Of a DNA stretch of 64,000 bases, positions 1 to 58,774 are shown one piece after another. The first letter of the stretch is position 1. The number at the start of each line of letters is the position of its first letter. This DNA comes from Gloeomargaritales cyanobacterium VI4D9 (GTDB taxonomy: Bacteria; Cyanobacteriota; Cyanobacteriia; Gloeomargaritales; Gloeomargaritaceae). The stretch is from the NCBI GenBank assembly GCA_927797885.1, contig OV696605.1, positions 2,703,157-2,767,156 of the forward strand, given 5' to 3'. Made by a program: the position numbers and the translations under genes. The notes under the pieces are model-generated. The model had not been told where the DNA came from, did no database searches, and was given only the letters and a program-made list of their open reading frames with translations.

Positions 1-150
1 AATTGGAATGCCCAACCGGCGATAGGCGTGTCCCTCCCCCACCATCGGTAAAGCGAGTACCTGTGCGCCCAAATTTTGGCAGGCTTGGGCAATCAAACTG
101 GCATTTAAGTCCTCCCCATGCCCGTTGCTGAGAAATAAAATGGTGGTCAT
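1..150 (-). CDS. LpxB-related glycosyltransferase-like protein (N-terminal part)
   Basis: The first 50 codons of a minus-strand gene that runs off the left edge. The visible protein begins MTTILFLSNGHGEDLNASL and continues with a GEGHAYRRLGI stretch. This matches the N-terminus of the lipid-A-disaccharide synthase-related family found in cyanobacteria and plants, whose substrate is not established and which is distinct from true LpxB. The ATG at 150 is chosen because the only nearby upstream ATG lies in another frame and meets a stop after a few codons. Only the N-terminal Rossmann strand is visible, so the family call rests on this segment alone. Confidence 0.6.
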   Translation of the reverse strand, partial: MTTILFLSNGHGEDLNASLIAQACQNLGAQVLALPMVGEGHAYRRLGIPI

Positions 151-177
151 GGGTGCAACATCATCTCCCTCATTTAT

Positions 178-283
178 GGACACCTCTATTTATTCACAAC
201 GATACAAAATTATCTCGCTGGAACCCTTATATCCAGGAGAACCAGAAGGGCTACGCCCCTGCGACCCATTTTTAGAAGTGCCC
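178..283. repeat. Miniature inverted-repeat element, family A (copy 1)
   Basis: It begins GGACACCTCTATTTATTC and ends TTTAGAAGTGCCC, which form an imperfect terminal inverted repeat. The interior carries the family signature GGAGAACCA, then GCTACGCCCCTGCGACCC. Related copies lie at 4215-4339, 23471-23580 and 60939-61051. The same terminal sequence bounds the IS5-family element at 36616-38084, so this is probably a non-autonomous IS5 derivative. Confidence 0.7.
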
Positions 284-413
284 TTATACTAAAATCCATT
301 CTGGCTCAAGGAATCACCTATTCCTGTAAAATTTCACTTGATAATACTGGTGGGGTGAACCCATGTTCAAAAGCACCAAAAATTATTTTCCTAAATTTAA
401 TTAAGGTTGCGCC

Positions 414-1499
414 ATGACCTATTTTCCTCCCAAACAACCGGCATTTAATTATTTACACCATTTGGCACTCATGTATGGGGATGCCCAACAGCCCTGGACT
501 GTGGATGACTTGAGCTTCTATGTCGTCCATCAATCGGCACCGGGCATTTGGCAAGATTGGTTATTTGATTCTTTTTTGTTTTTGAATATCGCCAGTAAAA
601 ATAAACGGGACTACCGGGCAGATATTAATTTAGGTACGACGATGAGCGGGGAAGGGGATTTTTTTGCCGCCTGTTCTCCCCAACCGGCAGGGGTCGCAGA
701 GTGGGAAGAATTGCTGGACTTTTACAGCGATGCGGTGCGAACCTTAAACCAAACCATCAAACAACTCATTCCCCATATTAACACCCCCTTAACCACCCAA
801 CGGAATGCGGTGTTGATGATCCCCTACCCCCACATCACCCAGGTGGATTTCGGTCGTTCCGGCTGGAATTTTTCCACCCAAGGGCAAAATTTAGACCAGG
901 CTACCCGTGCCCGTTTAAGTGCCTGTCAATGGTTTATTGAGGAATTAAAAAAACGCTTACCCGCCTGTGAATATGTACATATTTTGGGGGTCTATTGGAT
1001 GTTTGAAACCGTATTTCGCAGTTGGGAAGTGGATGACCATTGGTTGTTAAAAGAATTACGTCCATTCATTCATCAAATGGGATATAAATTCCTCTGGATT
1101 CCCTTTTATAGTACCTATAACATTCACCTGTTAGATGATTATCAAAACTATTATTTTGACCTGGCTTTCTTGCAACCCAATTATATGTTTTATCAACGGG
1201 GGGTCAATTTAGCCCAAGCTGCCCAAGCCGCCCAAAAACGCCAAGCCGGTTTAGAAATTGAATACTACTTAGAATTAGATGAACCCATTGCCGTCCAAGG
1301 GGAACGCCACCAGCGGTTTCGAGAATATTTGGATGGGGGAGTGACCTATGGGTATATGCGAGAATCTGCCTGTGCTTATTTTTTAGGTCAAAAATCCTTA
1401 GAACGAATGGCTATTCATCCTGACCCCCAGGAATGGGAATTTTATCAAGATATTTATCACTTTATCCGGGGCACCTATATCCCCAAATCCCTACGCTAA
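414..1499 (+). CDS. DUF4855 domain-containing protein
   Basis: A 361-residue protein without an evident signal peptide. It shows the WLFDSFLFL strand near residue 49, the MIPYPH segment, an FLWIPFY motif and a C-terminal YGYMRESACAYF stretch, the layout I associate with DUF4855. The family has a TIM-barrel or glycosidase-like feel, but no activity is established to my knowledge. The gene stands alone, with a divergent LpxB-like gene and a family A repeat upstream and the DUF6464-serS cluster 27 bp downstream. The ATG at 414 follows an AAGGTTGCGCC stretch with a weak ribosome-binding site. The family call is moderate and the function unknown. Confidence 0.6.
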   Translation: MTYFPPKQPAFNYLHHLALMYGDAQQPWTVDDLSFYVVHQSAPGIWQDWLFDSFLFLNIASKNKRDYRADINLGTTMSGEGDFFAACSPQPAGVAEWEELLDFYSDAVRTLNQTIKQLIPHINTPLTTQRNAVLMIPYPHITQVDFGRSGWNFSTQGQNLDQATRARLSACQWFIEELKKRLPACEYVHILGVYWMFETVFRSWEVDDHWLLKELRPFIHQMGYKFLWIPFYSTYNIHLLDDYQNYYFDLAFLQPNYMFYQRGVNLAQAAQAAQKRQAGLEIEYYLELDEPIAVQGERHQRFREYLDGGVTYGYMRESACAYFLGQKSLERMAIHPDPQEWEFYQDIYHFIRGTYIPKSLR

Positions 1500-1526
1500 A
1501 TTAGAGACACTGATTATTCCTTGCTC

Positions 1527-1916
1527 ATGGCACCAGAGTCCGTCCCCACCGAGATTTTACTCAACCAGTCCGCCCAACCCTTGGGGGAATTTTTACTTCC
1601 TGACCGTCCCCAACCCGGCAGTCCTGTGGAGGTGAACGGGCAACTTTACACCGTCCTCGAACGGCGGCATCGCTATCACTATCGGGGCGGTCGTTATCAA
1701 CTGCACAAGATGGCACTCCTGGTACAGGTTGCCCACCCTGACCGGAATCGTTGGCAAGGGCGATGGATCATTGGAGATGGTCGTTGTCAGTATAATGCCC
1801 TATCGGAATTAGTACGATGTGCCGTGAACCCCTCGGGTCCTTGCCGAGACTGTCCGAGTTTTGCGCCCGCTTCCGGTACAATCAGGGATGGCTCAGAGGG
1901 GAAACCATCGTGCTAG
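1527..1916 (+). CDS. DUF6464 family protein
   Basis: About 129 residues if the ATG at 1527 is used; a TTG at 1521 would add two residues. The core reads [19 protein letters not shown], then an [20 protein letters not shown] strand, typical of the small DUF6464 family that I know only from cyanobacteria. The C-terminus holds a CRDC pair and may bind metal, but that is a guess. The last 7 bases overlap the start of serS, so the two genes are probably translationally coupled. No function is assigned. Confidence 0.6.
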
Positions 1917-3181
1917 ACCTCAAACTCATCCGGGAACAGCCTTTACAGGTAGCCGAGCGGTTGGCGACCCGGCACGGGGAAGTTGATTTGCAACCGATTC
2001 TTGACCTGGATGAGCAGGTGCGTTCCCTGGAGAAACAACGCTCCCGTCTGCAAGCAGAAAGTAATGACATTGGCAAGCAAGTTGGTCAACTCCTGCGCTC
2101 CGGCGGTGCGGAAACCACTTTGGCAGACCTGCGGCAACGGGGGCAAGAACTGAAACAAATTTTGGCAAATCTAGAGCAACAGGAGCGAGAACTGCGGCAA
2201 AAATTAGAAGCATTATTATTACAATTGCCGAATTTGCCTGCCCCGGATGTGCCGGTGGGAAAGGATGAGAATCAGAATATTGAACGCTCTCGCTGGGGGG
2301 ATGAATATAAATCAAAAATAGACGTTTTACCCCATTGGGAAATTGCAGAAAAGCTACGCCTATTTGAAACGGAACGGGCTACTAAAATTGCCCAAAGTCG
2401 GTTTGTGACCCTGTGGGGGGCGGGGGCGGCTTTGGAACGAGCTTTAATTCAATGGATGTTACATCACCATATTCAACGGGGTTATATCGAAGTTTTGCCC
2501 CCTTTTTTAGTGAATAGCCAAGCCCTCACAGGTACGGGACAATTACCTAAATTTAGTCAGGAAAGTTTTGCCTGTCGGGACGATGATTTATGGTTAATTC
2601 CCACCGCTGAAGTACCCGTAACTAATTTATATCGGGATGAAATTTTAAGTGCGGAACAATTACCCATTTATCACTGTGCGTGGACCCCTTGTTTTCGCCG
2701 GGAAGCGGGTAGTTATGGGCGGGATACCAGGGGTTTGATTCGTTTACACCAGTTTAATAAAGTGGAATTGGTGAAAATTGTCCACCCGGAAACCTCTGCC
2801 CAAGAACATGAGCAATTGGTACGGGATGCGGCGACCCTTTTAGAAGCATTGAAACTGCCTTACCGAGTGGTTGAATTATGTACGGGGGATTTGGGATTTG
2901 GGGCACAAAAATGTTATGACCTAGAAGTTTGGTTGCCCGCCCAGAAAACCTATCGGGAAATTTCTAGTTGTTCCAATTTCGGGACTTTTCAAGCCCGTCG
3001 GGCTGGGATTCGTTATGGGGAACCGGGGAAAAAGGGTACGGAGTTTGTGCATACGCTCAATGGTTCAGCCTTGGCGGTGGGACGAACGATGGCGGCGATT
3101 TTGGAACAATATCAACAGCCCGATGGTCAAGTTTATATCCCGGAGGTATTGCAACCCTTTCTCGGTCGGGAAACCCTATGA
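1910..3181 (+). CDS. serS: Seryl-tRNA synthetase
   Basis: Charges tRNA-Ser with serine in the cytoplasm. The 423-residue product starts [11 protein letters not shown] and has the long antiparallel coiled-coil tRNA-binding arm at about residues 30-105. The class II catalytic core follows, with TGQLPKF, a motif 2 region around [15 protein letters not shown], and motif 3 as [17 protein letters not shown] choose the GTG at 1910: an upstream start at 1817 would add an unrelated N-terminus read out of frame through the DUF6464 gene. It overlaps DUF6464 by 7 bp, and its stop overlaps the next gene's start as ATGA, indicating one operon. Confidence 0.95.
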
Positions 3182-7018: not shown

Positions 7019-7039
7019 GAACTATAACGTTTACCCGTT

Positions 7040-7156
7040 TACAGTCTTTTGAGTGGTTATGGGATACAGTTGAACCCCACTTGCCGTAGGTCAATTATGG
7101 TAAGCCTTTAGGATAATCGAGGCTTTTTGTATCCTTGAATTGATAAATAGGCTGTA
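7040..7156. repeat. Miniature element, family E (copy 1)
   Basis: A 117-bp element from TACAGTCTTTTGAGTGG to AAATAGGCTGTA, ending in TA on both sides. The interior carries GGGATACAGTTGAACCC and GATAATCGAGGCTTTTTG. Nearly identical copies lie at 28110-28226 and, inverted, at 33968-34084. The TA-bounded ends suggest IS630/Tc1-type mobilisation. Confidence 0.75.
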
Positions 7157-28109: not shown

Positions 28110-28226
28110 TACAGTCTTTTGAGTAGTTATGGGATACAATTGAACCCTAGTTGCTGTGGGTCAATCATGCTAAGCCTTTAGGATAATCGAGGCTTTTTGT
28201 ATCCTTTAATTGATAAATAGACTGTA
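28110..28226. repeat. Miniature element, family E (copy 2)
   Basis: A 117-bp copy, TACAGTCTTTTGAGTAG to AAATAGACTGTA, almost the same as the copy at 7040-7156 and the same length. The surrounding gap 28004-28510 has no gene. A lone family C right end, TTTAGGATTGCCATA, occurs near 28323. Confidence 0.75.
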
Positions 28227-33967: not shown

Positions 33968-34084
33968 TACGGTCTATTTATAAATTAAAGGATACAAAAA
34001 GCCTCGATTATTCTAAAAACTCAGCATGATTGACCTACGGCAAGCGGGGTTTAACTGTATCCCATAACCACTCAAAAGACTATA
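33968..34084 (-). repeat. Miniature element, family E (copy 3, inverted)
   Basis: 117 bp, TACGGTCTATTTATAAATT to CTCAAAAGACTATA. It is the reverse complement of copies 1 and 2 with some substitutions, and it has the same length, arguing against long decay. Confidence 0.7.
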
Positions 34085-34115
34085 AGTAATAAATAATCAA
34101 GAGGTCTCTACTACA

Positions 34116-52558: not shown

Positions 52559-54388
52559 ATGTGCGGTATCGTGGGCTATGTGGGGTTACAATCAGCCACC
52601 CCGATTTTGATGGAAGGGCTACGGCGGTTGGAATACCGGGGCTATGATTCCGCCGGGATTGCCTGGCAAAGTGACGGGGAAATTCACATCCTGCGGGCAC
52701 CGGGAAAATTGCACAATCTGCAAGCCCGTCTGCCGAATACGAATAGCCACATCGGGATTGGTCACACCCGCTGGGCAACCCACGGCAAGCCGGAAGAGCG
52801 CAACGCCCATCCCCATTGCGACAATCAGCACCGGGTCGCCGTCGTGCAAAACGGCATTATCGAAAACTATCGCCCCCTGCGGGAAGAACTCACTGCCCAG
52901 GGCTGTGTGTTTACCTCCGATACGGATACGGAAGTCATCCCCCATCTGTTGAGCCGATATTTACAAAATAATTACTCATTTCTGGAGGCGATGCGTCTCA
53001 CCGTTGCCCAATTGGAGGGGGCTTTTGCCATTGCCGCCATTGCCACCGATGCGCCGGATGAAATCGTCATTGCCCGTCAGCAGGCACCTTTGGTGGTGGG
53101 GTTGGGGCAGGGGGAATTGTTTTGCGCCTCCGATACCACCGCTTTGGTGAACCATACCCAGGCGTTTTTGAGTTTGGAAAATGGCGAATTGGCACGCCTC
53201 ACGCCCCTGGGGGTGGAACTGTACAGCTTTGCCGGGGAGCGAGTGCGGCGCTATCCTGAGCGGCTCACCTGGAGTCCCGTCCTGGTGGAAAAAGGCGGCT
53301 TCAAGCATTATATGCTCAAGGAAATCCACGACCAGCCGGGGGTCTTGCGCCAGGGGTTGGAGTCCCATCTTTTGGACGGGCAGATTGCTCTGGGACCCGT
53401 GCAGGAATTGTATCCCCAGGTGGAGCAAATTCAAATTGTCGCCTGTGGTACGAGTTGGCACGCCGGTTTGGTCGGGCAGTACATTTTACAGCAAGTGGCG
53501 CAGGTGCCCACCACCGTACATTATGCGTCTGAATTTCGCTATGCTCCGCCCCCCTACCGTCCCCGCACCCTCACCATCGGGGTCACCCAGTCCGGGGAAA
53601 CCGCCGACACCCTTGCCGCCTTGAGTTTGGAATCCAGCCGCCAGTTGACCGGTACGCCCTGGTTATTGGGGATTACCAACCGCCCGGAGAGTAGTTTGGG
53701 TCGCCTGGTGCCCTACGTGATAGACACCCGTGCGGGAATTGAAATTGGGGTAGCCGCCACCAAAACCTTTATCGCTCAGGTCGTTGCCTTTTATTTATTA
53801 GCCTTTGACCTAGCTTACCAACGGCAAATCCTCAGCCAAGAAAAACTAGAGTTATACTTAACCAATTTGCAAAAAATTCCCAACCAATTGGAGTGGATTT
53901 TAGAAACTCAGACCTCAGCTATTGAGCAACTTGCCTATGAATTTCAGGAAGTGCAACACGTGATTTATTTAGGGCGGGGTATCAATTTCCCGATTGCTTT
54001 AGAAGGGGCATTGAAACTGAAAGAAATTAGCTATATTCACGCCGAGGGTTATCCCGCCGGAGAGATGAAGCATGGTCCCATTGCCCTATTGGATAAGGGC
54101 GTGCCTGTGATTGCCATTGCCACCCCAGGAACCGTGTACGATAAAGTTTTAAGTAACGTACAGGAAGCCCGGGCGCGGGAAGCCCATATTATTGGGGTAG
54201 GTTCAGCCGCCAATACGGAAATCCCTGATTTATTTCAGGTGAATTTAACCATACCAGAAGTGCCAGAATTACTCTCTCCCTTAGTGACAGTTATTCCTTT
54301 ACAATTACTAGCGTATTACATTGCCGCCCATCGGGGTCTAGATGTGGATCAACCCCGCAACCTCGCCAAATCTGTTACTGTGGAATAG
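52559..54388 (+). CDS. glmS: Glutamine--fructose-6-phosphate aminotransferase
   Basis: 609 residues. It makes glucosamine-6-phosphate, the first step to UDP-GlcNAc. The nucleophile is C2 in MCGIVGYVG. The glutaminase domain has HTRWATHGKP and VVQNGIIENY. Two SIS domains hold ACGTSWHAGL, TQSGETADTLAAL and GRGINFPIALEGALKLKEIS, and the C-terminus DQPRNLAKSVTVE is complete. No glmS ribozyme is expected or seen in the 131-bp upstream gap. Confidence 0.95.
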   Translation: MCGIVGYVGLQSATPILMEGLRRLEYRGYDSAGIAWQSDGEIHILRAPGKLHNLQARLPNTNSHIGIGHTRWATHGKPEERNAHPHCDNQHRVAVVQNGIIENYRPLREELTAQGCVFTSDTDTEVIPHLLSRYLQNNYSFLEAMRLTVAQLEGAFAIAAIATDAPDEIVIARQQAPLVVGLGQGELFCASDTTALVNHTQAFLSLENGELARLTPLGVELYSFAGERVRRYPERLTWSPVLVEKGGFKHYMLKEIHDQPGVLRQGLESHLLDGQIALGPVQELYPQVEQIQIVACGTSWHAGLVGQYILQQVAQVPTTVHYASEFRYAPPPYRPRTLTIGVTQSGETADTLAALSLESSRQLTGTPWLLGITNRPESSLGRLVPYVIDTRAGIEIGVAATKTFIAQVVAFYLLAFDLAYQRQILSQEKLELYLTNLQKIPNQLEWILETQTSAIEQLAYEFQEVQHVIYLGRGINFPIALEGALKLKEISYIHAEGYPAGEMKHGPIALLDKGVPVIAIATPGTVYDKVLSNVQEARAREAHIIGVGSAANTEIPDLFQVNLTIPEVPELLSPLVTVIPLQLLAYYIAAHRGLDVDQPRNLAKSVTVE

Positions 54389-54597
54389 TTGAAAAAATTA
54401 GTGTTGTTGTGTGTGTACGCAGAAAATAAAGTTGTATACTCAAAAATAAAGTCGTATACTGAGATCAGTTCATCCACAGGGTTCGCCCTGAGCAATTCCC
54501 CGCTTCCATGTCTTTGAGGTATTTAGATAGCTAAGCATCGTTGCTCGACTGGCACACAAAGAATTGAGCAATTATATCTGAAATAAGAGGTAGGGTC

Positions 54598-55173
54598 ATG
54601 GCTCAAACTCAGGTCAAAAAGTTTACCTTCGCAGAGTTCCTCGACTATGATGCGGAGGATTATCGTGTTGAGCTAGAAAATGGGGAAATAATTATCATGC
54701 CTACTGCCAGTCCCCAACATATTGAAATCATTCGTTTTTTATACTCCTTAATTCAACAATACATAAACGATCATAATCTATCCCTAGAAATTTTTCCTGG
54801 CGGTATCGGTGTACGCACTGGTATCCGTTCGTCAAGAGAACCAGATTTATGTATTCTGCATCGGGAAGAGTGGGAAGCATTGCGTAAACAAAATCCCAAG
54901 TCAGCTATTGTTGAACGTCCGCCTTTACTGGTTATCGAGGTGGTCAGTCCGGGGAGTGAAAATCAGGAACGGGACTATCAAAAAAAACGGGAAGAATATA
55001 GGCAGATGGGCATTCCTGAGTATTGGATTGTTGACCCGGAAGAACAGAAGGTTACGGTGTGTTTATTGGAAAATGATGCTTACACATCTACTGAGTACAT
55101 GGGTCAGGCTCCCATTCGGTCGGGCTTGCTAACCGACTTAGCGTTAACAGTCGAGCAGTTATCTAGGTTTTAG
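54598..55173 (+). CDS. Uma2 family (DUF820) putative restriction-endonuclease-fold protein
   Basis: 191 residues with the PD-(D/E)XK-like Uma2 core: TFAEFLDYDAEDYRVELENG at the N-terminus, an acidic motif in SSREPDLCILH, then LLVIEVVSPGSENQERDYQK with the catalytic ExK-like pattern, and MGIPEYWIVDPEEQKVTV. The family is greatly expanded in cyanobacteria, and its biological role is unsettled. It is the first gene inside the 54.4-57.5 kb accessory patch. Confidence 0.82.
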   Translation: MAQTQVKKFTFAEFLDYDAEDYRVELENGEIIIMPTASPQHIEIIRFLYSLIQQYINDHNLSLEIFPGGIGVRTGIRSSREPDLCILHREEWEALRKQNPKSAIVERPPLLVIEVVSPGSENQERDYQKKREEYRQMGIPEYWIVDPEEQKVTVCLLENDAYTSTEYMGQAPIRSGLLTDLALTVEQLSRF

Positions 55174-55309
55174 ATTATTGCCCTAGACAAAACCTGTAAA
55201 TATTGGCAAAATAGGGTTATCTCCAGTGGTCTTCAATTAATAAAAAGATATTTTATGGGGCAAGTTAGACATATTCTGGAGTTATCTGCTAGTAGGGAGA
55301 TTCTTCCTA

Positions 55310-56360
55310 ATGGAAAATGAAAATTTATACCAGTTGCCACACTCAAAATGGCTAGATATTCCCATACTCGCTCGTATATTTACTGATAGAACTAATTCCT
55401 ATAAATTCCTCTTTTTATTGAGCATTATGCAGTTGTTAGAGAGAAGTCAGTTTAATCAAGATTTATTTAAGTTTAAGGATATTTTGGTCGGAATGCTAAC
55501 AATCACTTGGTATCCTCATTCTGTTTTTAATTTATCTTTTGGTTCTCAAGATATGATTGCTAGGGAGCTTGATACACTTAGAAATGAGTTAAAAATTGAT
55601 AGATATTTATCAGGGGTCTCTCAAAATGATCAGGAAAAAATAAGAGAGATTATCTCTCAGTGTAGTCTCAGTTCCACGACTATAGACCTACTAAGGTATG
55701 TACCTTATAGACTAATCAGACCCTTTTTTTCTGATCTACTAAGAGGACTTAGAGAGCAACAGGTTAATCAAAGAATTAGTGATCTTGCTGAGCAAGAATT
55801 TGAAAATCGTAAACCATTATATAAATTTAATCAATCAAGAGATAGCATTATTTTACATCCCCTTGTGGATTGAATATTTTCAAGTGAATTTTTCAATTGT
55901 TCGTGCGTGGGTAGCATGGGAGTTCCTACAGTATATGCAAGGTAAAAATCCGAGTACACCAGCTATTGCTAATAAGATTTTTCCTCCTCTCACACGGGAG
56001 CCAATGACACAACAAACTAACTTTTGGAGGCTTGTCGTTAAATATTCTCAAAATCTCTGTTGCATCTACTCAAATCAGATAATAGGGGAGGATTTCTCCC
56101 TAGATCATTACTTGCCTTGGACATTTGTAGCCCATAACCAATTATGGAATCTAATTCCTGTTCCCAAATCAGTCAATTCATCAAAGTCAAATAAAGTTCC
56201 AAGTGAGATTTATTTTGATAAGTTTATTCAAGTACAGCATCTTGGTTTGACCATCGCTAATGAACACATAAGTGGATGTAAATGGGCAGAATCATATCTT
56301 TTGGATTTAGGTTTCTCAACTAAGGATGAATTGCTGTCCTTAGAAAGTCTCAGAAGATAA
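55310..56360 (+). pseudogene. HNH-endonuclease-like gene with a one-base frameshift
   Basis: Two overlapping frames, 55310-55873 and 55779-56360, together encode one protein of about 350 residues. Deleting one C from the CCCC run at 55859-55862 joins them as HPLWIEYF. The C-terminal part has DHYLPWTFVAHNQLWNLIPV, the DHxxPWSFVxHDxLWNL pattern of an HNH endonuclease family associated with defence islands. The N-terminal 185 residues are helical and unrecognised. It is either a pseudogene, a slippage-expressed gene or a sequencing error. Confidence 0.65.
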
Positions 56361-56409
56361 TATACTTTGAAAGTAAAACCTCTAATTGCTCTAGCGATTA
56401 GTCAAGGAT

Positions 56410-57555
56410 TTGAGGGACAGTGGGTTTATAATCCAAGTGGACGGAATATCAACTAAACAGAATGTAGATAAAAAAGTTTTCAAAATAGCCATTCTTCCCA
56501 CAGAGCATAAAGCAGTTCTGGATACCTGTTCAGCTTTGAGCCAGAAAGGGTTGGCTGAAATCATTTTTCTTAAGGTTGATTCCCAGGCGCAAATAGACCT
56601 AGATCACTTGGAAAAAACCTGCTCTAAGGGAATTGATTTACTTTCTACAATGGCGGCGAACAATGAGGTTGGGACGATTTATCCCATTCAGCAGATTGGC
56701 GAAATTGCTCAACACTATGGCATTCCTTTTCTATGCGATGGCTCCCAGGCTGTAGGCAAAATCCCAATCAATTTTAGCGAATGGGGCATTACCTTCCTCG
56801 CCATCTCCGGTCATAAATTCTATGCCCCGAAAGGGATAGGTGCGCTAGTCCTCAGGAGAGGGCAACGATTGAAACCACTTATATATGGAGGTGGGCATCA
56901 ACGTGGGACTCGCTCTGGAACTCTGAATGTACCAGGAATTGTCGGACTGGGGGAAGCCTGTAGATTGCGGTCTAGGGAGATGGCTGAAGATGAACAACGA
57001 ATTGCTCAACAACGGGATCGCTTGCAATCCTTACTCCAAAGTGCCATCCCTCATTTAGTTGTGAATGGAGATTTACAGCATCGGTTGGCAGGCAATCTAC
57101 ACATATCTATTCCAGGAATCCCCAACAGTGCCGTGATTGCCAGAGTCAGAAACCAGTTAGCCATTTCAACAGGTTCAGCCTGTTCTAGTGGCGTGGAAAC
57201 TCCCTCTCATGTCCTGACTGCCATGAAATTACCCTCAGAAGTGATTGAAGGAGCATTGCGAATTGGGCTAGGGAAATTTACAACCGATGATGAAGTGGAG
57301 CAAGCGGCGGACATTTTAATTTCCGCCTATCCAATCTGTACTCAGAGACTAAAAACTCACAGATTAGCTGGGTGGACTGCCGCTGTCAGTATACAACTTT
57401 ATTTTCTCAAGACCTTCCCCTCCAGAGAGACGGTGGCGACTCCAGTATACGACTTTATTTTTGCAAGTCACGGAAAATTGGACGATAGAATCGGCATTTC
57501 CGGCTTTCTGAGTAGCGGATGCGCTACGCTATCACTATGCAAACTATCAGCATGA
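56410..57555 (+). pseudogene. DndA-like cysteine desulfurase, 5'-truncated
   Basis: The open frame encodes most of a class V aminotransferase-fold cysteine desulfurase from IAILPTEHKAVLDTC onward. PLP binding shows as DGSQAVGKIPINF and SGHKFYAPKGIGALVL with the lysine, and the persulfide cysteine lies in TGSACSSGVETPSHVL. About the first 85 residues, including the substrate-binding DNNAT segment, are missing. After about 57335 the frame continues into repeat sequence as a 70-residue unrelated tail. The NSAVIARVRNQLAIS region points to DndA of the phosphorothioation system, but no dndBCDE genes are nearby. Confidence 0.7.
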
Positions 57556-57610
57556 TCAACCGATGGCAAGTGGAGTACAACTGTATCCCATAACTACTCA
57601 AAAAACTGTA
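57545..57610 (-). repeat. Miniature element, family E, partial copy
   Basis: The sequence TACAACTGTATCCCATAACT and ACTCAAAAAACTGTA match the right half of the inverted family E copy at 33968-34084. The left half is missing. It lies just past the DndA-like frame. The rest of the gap up to 57739 holds only the ribosome-binding site of the next gene. Confidence 0.6.
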
Positions 57611-57739
57611 AGGACGATGGGTATATCTGCTTTGAACCCATCTCAATCAATCATCCCATCGCTGGCGGTGTACCCTACAGAAATGTGTTAGGATAACCCT
57701 GGATGTCGGTGCATTTGGTGTTTTGAGGAGTTACCGCCG

Positions 57740-58774
57740 GTGCCATCCTTCCCCAATGCTGGTGTGAGTGCCATTCGCCCAATTCAGGTGGGGGTGATTG
57801 GCGTGGGAAACATGGGACAGCATCATGTGCGGGTGCTGAGTTTTCTCAAGGATGTGCAACTGGTGGGGGTGGCGGATGTCGACGTGGAGCGGGGCTTAGA
57901 ACTCGCCAGCAAGTATCGGGTGCGATTTTTTGAAGATTACCGGGAACTGCTCCCCTACGTGGATGCGGTGTGTGTAGCGGTGCCGACCCGTTTGCACTAC
58001 GAGGTGGGCATGACCTGTATGCGCCAAGGGGTGCATATTTTGATGGAAAAACCGATTGCCGCCAGCATCAGCGAAGCCGAATTGTTGGTGAATGCCGCCG
58101 CCGAATACGATTGCATTTTGCAGGTGGGGCACATTGAGCGGTTTAATCCCGCTTTTTTGGAATTGCAAAAGGTGCTCCAACAGGAGGAAATTCTCGCCTT
58201 GGAAGCCCATCGCCTCAGCCCCTATTCCCAGCGGGCGAATGATGTGTCCGTGGTCTTGGATTTGATGATCCACGATATTGATTTGCTGTTGGAATTGACG
58301 GCGGCACCAGTGGTGAAACTGACCGCCAGCGGTACCCATGCGTCCGGTTCCGGTTATTTGGATTACGTCACCGCCACCTTGAATTTTGCCAACGGAGCCA
58401 TTGCCTGTTTAACTGCCAGCAAAGTGACCCATCGCAAGGTACGGCGCTTGACCATTCATGGCAAAAATTCCCTCACGGAAGCGGATTTTTTGAATAATGA
58501 AATTCTCATCCATCGTCACAGCCAAAAGGCGGGGCAAGTCCTCTACCGCCAGGATGAATTGGTGGAGCGGGTGTACACCAGCAATATCGAACCCCTGCAC
58601 GCCGAATTGGAACATTTTGTCCAATGTGTGCGGGGCGGCAATCAACCCTCCGTCGGCGGCGAACAAGCCCTGAAAGCCCTGCGTTTAGCCACCCGGATTG
58701 AACAGATTGCCCTGGACAGTCAGGCTTGGCAAGAAAACCTCGTGGGGCTGGAAAAATCCCTGCGGTTGCCCTAA
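57740..58774 (+). CDS. Gfo/Idh/MocA family oxidoreductase
   Basis: 344 residues. The NAD(P)-binding fold begins VGVIGVGNMGQHHVRVL near residue 18. The catalytic lysine lies in the conserved LMEKPIAASISEAE. The C-terminal Gfo-type beta sheet includes HIERFNPAFLELQ and DLMIHDIDLLLEL, the HDxxL/H region. The GTG at 57740 follows GAGGAG. UDP-N-acetylglucosamine dehydrogenases and similar sugar enzymes share the HIERFNP segment, but the substrate is uncertain. Its end overlaps the convergent permease gene by 4 bp. Confidence 0.85.
   Translation: MPSFPNAGVSAIRPIQVGVIGVGNMGQHHVRVLSFLKDVQLVGVADVDVERGLELASKYRVRFFEDYRELLPYVDAVCVAVPTRLHYEVGMTCMRQGVHILMEKPIAASISEAELLVNAAAEYDCILQVGHIERFNPAFLELQKVLQQEEILALEAHRLSPYSQRANDVSVVLDLMIHDIDLLLELTAAPVVKLTASGTHASGSGYLDYVTATLNFANGAIACLTASKVTHRKVRRLTIHGKNSLTEADFLNNEILIHRHSQKAGQVLYRQDELVERVYTSNIEPLHAELEHFVQCVRGGNQPSVGGEQALKALRLATRIEQIALDSQAWQENLVGLEKSLRLP

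Follow-up and report, generated by a model that had tools for sequence, protein, structure and literature searches.

The window, i.e. the whole stretch of 64,000 nucleotides that was analysed, contains a patch of ~3 kb directly downstream of glmS (52559–54388, + strand; NCBIfam TIGR01135, 798 bits; open reading frame stop at 54388). Four exact copies of the word AAAATAAAGTYGTATACT flank this patch, two on the + strand (54423–54440 and 54443–54460) and two on the − strand (57388–57405 and 57444–57461). A preliminary description of this DNA had reported paired words in opposite orientation at both ends, an interior more AT-rich than its surroundings, and no transposase inside. All three points held: the words are exact at the positions given above, the GC content is 0.404 in the patch interior versus 0.535 in the remaining window, and no transposase gene was found within the patch. 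The 3′ end of glmS is attTn7, the target of Tn7 elements of the TnsD type, and Tn7 inserts ~25 bp behind glmS.

With three mismatches allowed, 0.06 words were expected by chance in the window, and none of 100 shuffled windows reached four words. A search of the whole 3,162,419-bp genome found no further exact copy of AAAATAAAGTYGTATACT, and the lone extra match with at most two mismatches, at 1841023, is located inside another left end of the same family. Between the inverted word pairs, identity reaches 20–21 bases. The preliminary description had named a common solitary intergenic repeat as the case against its own reading; this case is excluded by the genome-wide word search and by an array search of 390 cyanobacterial genomes described below.

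On the glmS side, a terminus of the TGT type, TGTACGCAG (54414–54422, + strand), begins 25 bp after the glmS stop, and similar termini occur at other glmS loci. The right end of the window consists of this terminus followed by AAAATAAAGT. Two putative TnsB-type sites adjoin it, namely R1 (AAAATAAAGTTGTATACT, T form; 54423–54440, + strand), assigned by word match, position and pattern, and R2 (C form; 54443–54460, + strand), at 20 bp from R1. In an alignment with L022, the array of the congener G003 holds three sites here; hence, one 20-bp unit is missing from the window. Judging from its position, the 5-bp sequence GTGTG adjoining the right terminus (54409–54413) occupies the place of a would-be target duplication, of which the partner terminus is lost. 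The right end thus lies proximal to glmS at the attTn7 position. The limits of 54423–57461 in the preliminary description fit the words but not the element, whose start at 54414 lies 9 bp before the first word and which is recognisable to 57514.

On the far side, the putative TnsB-type sites L3 (inner, T form; 57388–57405, − strand) and L2 (middle, C form; 57444–57461, − strand), both assigned by word match, are 56 bp apart, as compared with 20 bp on the glmS side. Both ends therefore carry multiple sites in inverted orientation, dense on the right and spaced on the left. From the middle towards the outer site, a left-end core (57462–57514, − strand) is conserved with the loci L023 and L025 and ends 4 bp into the outer site (AGTA, 57511–57514). 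Left ends of other loci have three sites and a TGT terminus, whereas the left end in the window has two sites and no terminus. Since it follows L023 only to 57514 and then turns into host sequence, the outer site and the left terminus have been lost. TGT…ACA is thus not present at both ends; the right terminus is kept and the left one is gone. A scan of a contig collection that may not include records close to the genome of the window gave no match to the left-end core, and a plasmid search found homologues of the desulfurase and HNH genes only, the element itself being absent.

A dispersed host repeat of ~70 bp, with ~40 genomic copies, lies near the broken left end (57541–57612). It is also present in G003 and G004, and partial copies occur in the window at 7039–7085, 28110–28171 and 34021–34086. 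The next host gene encodes a Gfo/Idh/MocA-type oxidoreductase (57740–58774, + strand); this gene is located far from glmS in G003 and G004.

The first cargo gene is an intact Uma2-family gene of 191 aa (54598–55173, + strand; PF05685, 9.7e-39; PADLOC PDC-S03). Its dN/dS ratio in comparison with G003 is about 0.15, while that of glmS is 0.03. It is the sole cargo gene with both an intact frame and signs of constraint, although part of this signal may predate the decay. It is followed by an HNH-nuclease pseudogene (55310–56456, + strand; HNH_4, PF13395, 4.5e-9), with the frames 55310–55873 and 55779–56360. Its lesions are a one-base insertion causing a frameshift near 55858 and a nonsense codon TAA at 56358–56360, with a remnant of the frame to 56456; intact homologues have 364–441 aa. 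The third gene is a fragment of an SspA/DndA-like cysteine desulfurase, a class-V aminotransferase (56464–57360, + strand; PADLOC PDLC02657, 6.3e-102, DndA; PDLC02759, 9.6e-102, SspA). Alignment with full-length relatives revealed that its first ~80 residues are deleted and its native C-terminus is lost, and the reading frame continues into the left end, to 57555. Hence, the Uma2, HNH and DndA-like genes of the preliminary description are all present by profile, but the HNH gene is a pseudogene and the desulfurase is truncated at both ends.

The nearest relative of the HNH–SspA pair is the locus L108 in G110 (84% identity), where the desulfurase N-terminus lies directly behind the HNH gene. 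Compared with L108, the window has only a deletion of ~240 bp. The gene order in L114 had suggested that sspH was lost between HNH and sspA, but this idea was rejected, as HNH and sspA adjoin each other in L086, L108, L109 and L110. The combination of SspB, SspC and SspD with the desulfurase was not found in the patch, which holds the SspA fragment only, and SspD was found neither in the window nor in its genome. L108 has no Tn7-like ends within its 11 kb, so that the link of the cargo to the transposon rests on two congeners, the window's organism and G003.

G003 carries the same right end (three sites versus two) at the same site behind glmS, and the same Uma2–HNH order, with 82.5% identity over the aligned part. 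Its HNH copy contains two in-frame TAG codons, and other repeats have taken the place of its far end. Because the HNH lesions differ between the window and G003, the two copies must have decayed separately. Three congeners and a further genus of this family (G002, G005, G006 and G007) have unrelated sequence behind glmS, in which no such sites occur. G004 has a single site with a TGT terminus at 142 bp behind glmS, which is probably another scar. No clean empty site could be demonstrated among these relatives, in which the glmS neighbourhood is rearranged and the downstream gene of the window lies elsewhere.

To compare these ends with those of other cyanobacteria, we searched 390 cyanobacterial genomes for arrays of two sites 20 bp apart, with the reversed pattern as control. 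Arrays with the 20-bp period were found in 14 of the 390 genomes, whereas the reversed pattern gave two matches. Nine of the matched loci, among them the window and G003, have the array immediately downstream of glmS. In L035, L040, L042, L047 and L048 the array is directly followed by tnsA, and tnsB, tnsC and TniQ or TnsD genes are located farther inside the related loci. Pfam domains in representative loci comprise the N- and C-terminal domains of TnsA, the Mu transposase C-terminal domain, TniB/AAA, TniQ and a glmS-type TnsD (PF15978, 8e-116). Automated placement put the terminus 23–26 bp after the glmS stop in six further loci, but took an inner site for L035 and L048; read by eye, the L035 terminus lies 25 bp after the glmS stop. 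The left ends of L023, L025, L026, L076, L081 and L082 have a terminus of TGT plus six bases, followed by the outermost site. The 5-bp flanks at the two ends differ in the complete-looking elements L076, L081 and L082, so the far end of these three elements is not well defined.

In L026 (G040), the left end of one Tn7-like element, 5 bp (AAACT) and the right end of a second one follow each other at 2794–3034, as tandem insertions, and a TnsA-like gene is found at 1097–1726. In L082 (G352; 139–1919, reverse strand), a patch of 1.8 kb downstream of glmS combines a single right-end array with an IS-like transposase gene and apparently three nested left ends, has no tns gene, and is another derelict at attTn7. 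Two left ends are solitary. The one in L023 (9766–9906; contig 2 of G003, 87 kb and possibly a plasmid) lies behind a fragment resembling a specificity subunit. The one in L025 (9902–10041), from the window's own genome (G000:C1 1,840,901–1,841,040), is located upstream of a holA-like gene and adjoins three near-identical tandem copies of an apparently nuclease-like gene of ~180 aa; no right end was found for it.

The ends in the window closely resemble those of Tn7. The E. coli Tn7 end, TGTGGGCGG plus ACAATAAAGT, has a full match in E. coli genomes, 25 bp after the glmS stop and between glmS and the TnsA gene. As in Tn7 (TnsABCDE), the window has a TGT terminus 25 bp past the glmS stop and 9 bp before the first site, the sites are near-identical (ACAATAAAGTCTTAAACTGA in Tn7 versus AAAATAAAGTCGTATACTGA in the window), and a dense right end by glmS is combined with a spaced left end, an arrangement also described for the ends of Tn7 (PMC11406308). 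Unlike Tn7, the patch lacks tns genes and a left terminus, measures 3.1 kb only and carries other cargo. With the cyanobacterial glmS-associated Tn7-like elements (L076–L080; type I-B1 CASTs in the literature) it shares the site family, the 20-bp period of the right end and the target. In contrast to the patch, those elements have tnsA by the right end, and then tnsB, tnsC and tnsD/tniQ.

None of tnsA, tnsB, tnsC and tnsD was found within the patch, and neither TnsA nor a glmS-type TniQ/TnsD was found in the genome of the window. The one TniQ of this genome is part of a type V-K CAST with Cas12k. This CAST is located at G000:C1 ~156,700–178,200 (L024 6724–9553, L115 5556–8290) and comprises TnsB, TnsC, a short TniQ, a MerR-like regulator and Cas12k (NF038191, 670 bits), with a type I restriction-modification set in between. 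Since the patch lacks tns genes and the genome lacks TnsA and a glmS-type TnsD, we filed the patch as a remnant rather than as a functional Tn7-like element.

The HNH protein has homologues in 69 of the 390 cyanobacterial genomes (E ≤1e-3), with 39 outside the genus at strong scores. In L111, L113 and L114, PADLOC identified SspB, SspC, SspD, SspH, SspA/DndA and Uma2-type candidates among the neighbours of the HNH gene, and the usual gene order is sspB, sspC, other genes, HNH, sspA. At least one of SspA/B/C/D was located within ~10 kb of the HNH gene in 20 of 27 loci, as compared with 0 of 20 shifted controls in the same genome set, although defence genes cluster generally and these controls do not allow for clustering. 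The test was not blind to the HNH–SspA pair either: the HNH gene had been picked for lying beside an SspA-like fragment, and the 27 loci came from the HNH search. From this proximity to Ssp genes we take the cargo of the patch to be part of an Ssp island. True SspD is present in 50 genomes, 15 of which also have the HNH gene (Fisher p = 1.5e-5), within 7 kb in at least 12 of these. Hence, the HNH gene often but not always accompanies SspD, being present in about one quarter to one third of the SspD genomes.

Taken together, the patch is very probably what is left of a glmS-targeting Tn7-like transposon (TnsABC + TnsD) that can no longer move, with damaged cargo from an Ssp island. The observations behind this reading are the sites, their position at glmS, the homologous arrays beside tnsA, the insertion shared with the congener, the loss of one terminus, the pseudogenes and the HNH–Ssp linkage. 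We infer the following order of events. In a common ancestor of the window's organism and G003, a TnsD-directed insertion would have occurred 25 bp downstream of glmS, with the right end toward glmS. The words, from their position and pattern, would be the TnsB binding sites of this element, densely packed with a 20-bp period at the right end and set wider, at 56 and ~66 bp, at the left end. In related elements the tns genes start next to the right end; here they would have been lost or never carried, and the left terminus would have been lost later, beside the dispersed host repeat. As cargo, the element would have carried the 3′ portion of an island for single-strand phosphorothioation (Ssp) defence, with Uma2, the HNH nuclease and SspA in this order. 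Tn7-like elements are known to carry many defence genes as cargo (PMC8649781). With only Uma2 intact, the patch should today neither transpose nor make phosphorothioate DNA.

A finer reading within this explanation, which does not contradict it, is that the patch derives from a type I-B1 CAST rather than from a plain Tn7-like element. I-B1 CASTs are relatives of Tn7 with a glmS-targeting TnsD and occur in cyanobacteria only (PMC11406308). We regard this descent as rather unlikely, since the patch retains neither cas or tns genes nor a CRISPR array, and the assignment would have to be made from the ends.

The preliminary description had left a choice between a defence-island remnant and a non-autonomous unit with cargo. 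Our results agree with the remnant of a mobile element that carries genes of a defence island, but a working non-autonomous unit does not fit well, and both the Tn7-like nature of the patch and the attTn7 site had been missed. Such a unit would be a mini-Tn7 that can still be mobilised, its ends being served in trans by TnsABCD from another element. Each end has indeed kept two perfect sites, the right terminus is intact, and related left ends exist on the 87-kb contig of G003, possibly a plasmid, and elsewhere in the same genome. However, without the left terminus and the outermost site there is no usual transposase cut at that end, and the genome has no TnsA or glmS-type TnsD to offer. Moreover, the congener has its patch at the same place with a differently broken far side, and two of the three cargo genes are dead. 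We therefore consider mobilisation in trans very improbable. That host intergenic repeats just happen to bracket a few genes, as the many dispersed repeats of the genome and the one by the patch might suggest, is refuted by the confinement of the exact words to this locus and by the recurrence of spacing, terminus and glmS position beside tnsA in other genera.

Within the Tn7-like remnant, the cargo is the more useful outcome, because it pointed to a family of HNH nucleases that is frequently accompanied by SspABCD genes in cyanobacteria. Invariant residues of this family are D259, H260 and N283, and it aligns with the HNH domain of Cas9. The predicted structure has a mean pLDDT of 84 and a helical N-terminal part without a convincing match in the PDB. 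Structure searches gave low-scoring matches to the HNH domain only (Cas9 and the Gme HNH nickase), and the matches listed included no sulfur-binding domain. The HNH protein matched none of the PADLOC models of Ssp effectors. Similar to the SspABCD systems with SspE or SspFGH, the known Ssp effectors (PMC8092258), the patch has an SspA-like desulfurase, and related loci join HNH and Uma2-type genes to SspB, SspC, SspD and sometimes SspH. Unlike those systems, the window and its genome are without SspD.

According to a review, it is in Cyanobacteria that modification without restriction occurs most often (PMC12707154). The Dnd restriction genes DndFGH have been reported absent from cyanobacteria (PMC8569181). 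This reported lack of restriction, the recurrent linkage to Ssp genes and the D-H-N residues make the HNH family a candidate for an unrecognised effector of cyanobacterial Ssp systems, which may serve as a lead. More specifically, it is conceivable, if somewhat short of an even chance, that these proteins form an undescribed nuclease family of ~380 aa with a Cas9-type D-H-N site, which is a partner of SspABCD and acts as the missing restriction or phosphorothioate-sensing effector of modification-without-restriction systems. As a transposon remnant, the patch is ordinary; it illustrates how, in a small cyanobacterial genome, former defence traffic leaves lasting scars at a glmS landing site. 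If the HNH protein is the missing partner, the question of modification without restriction would become directly testable in a heterologous host.
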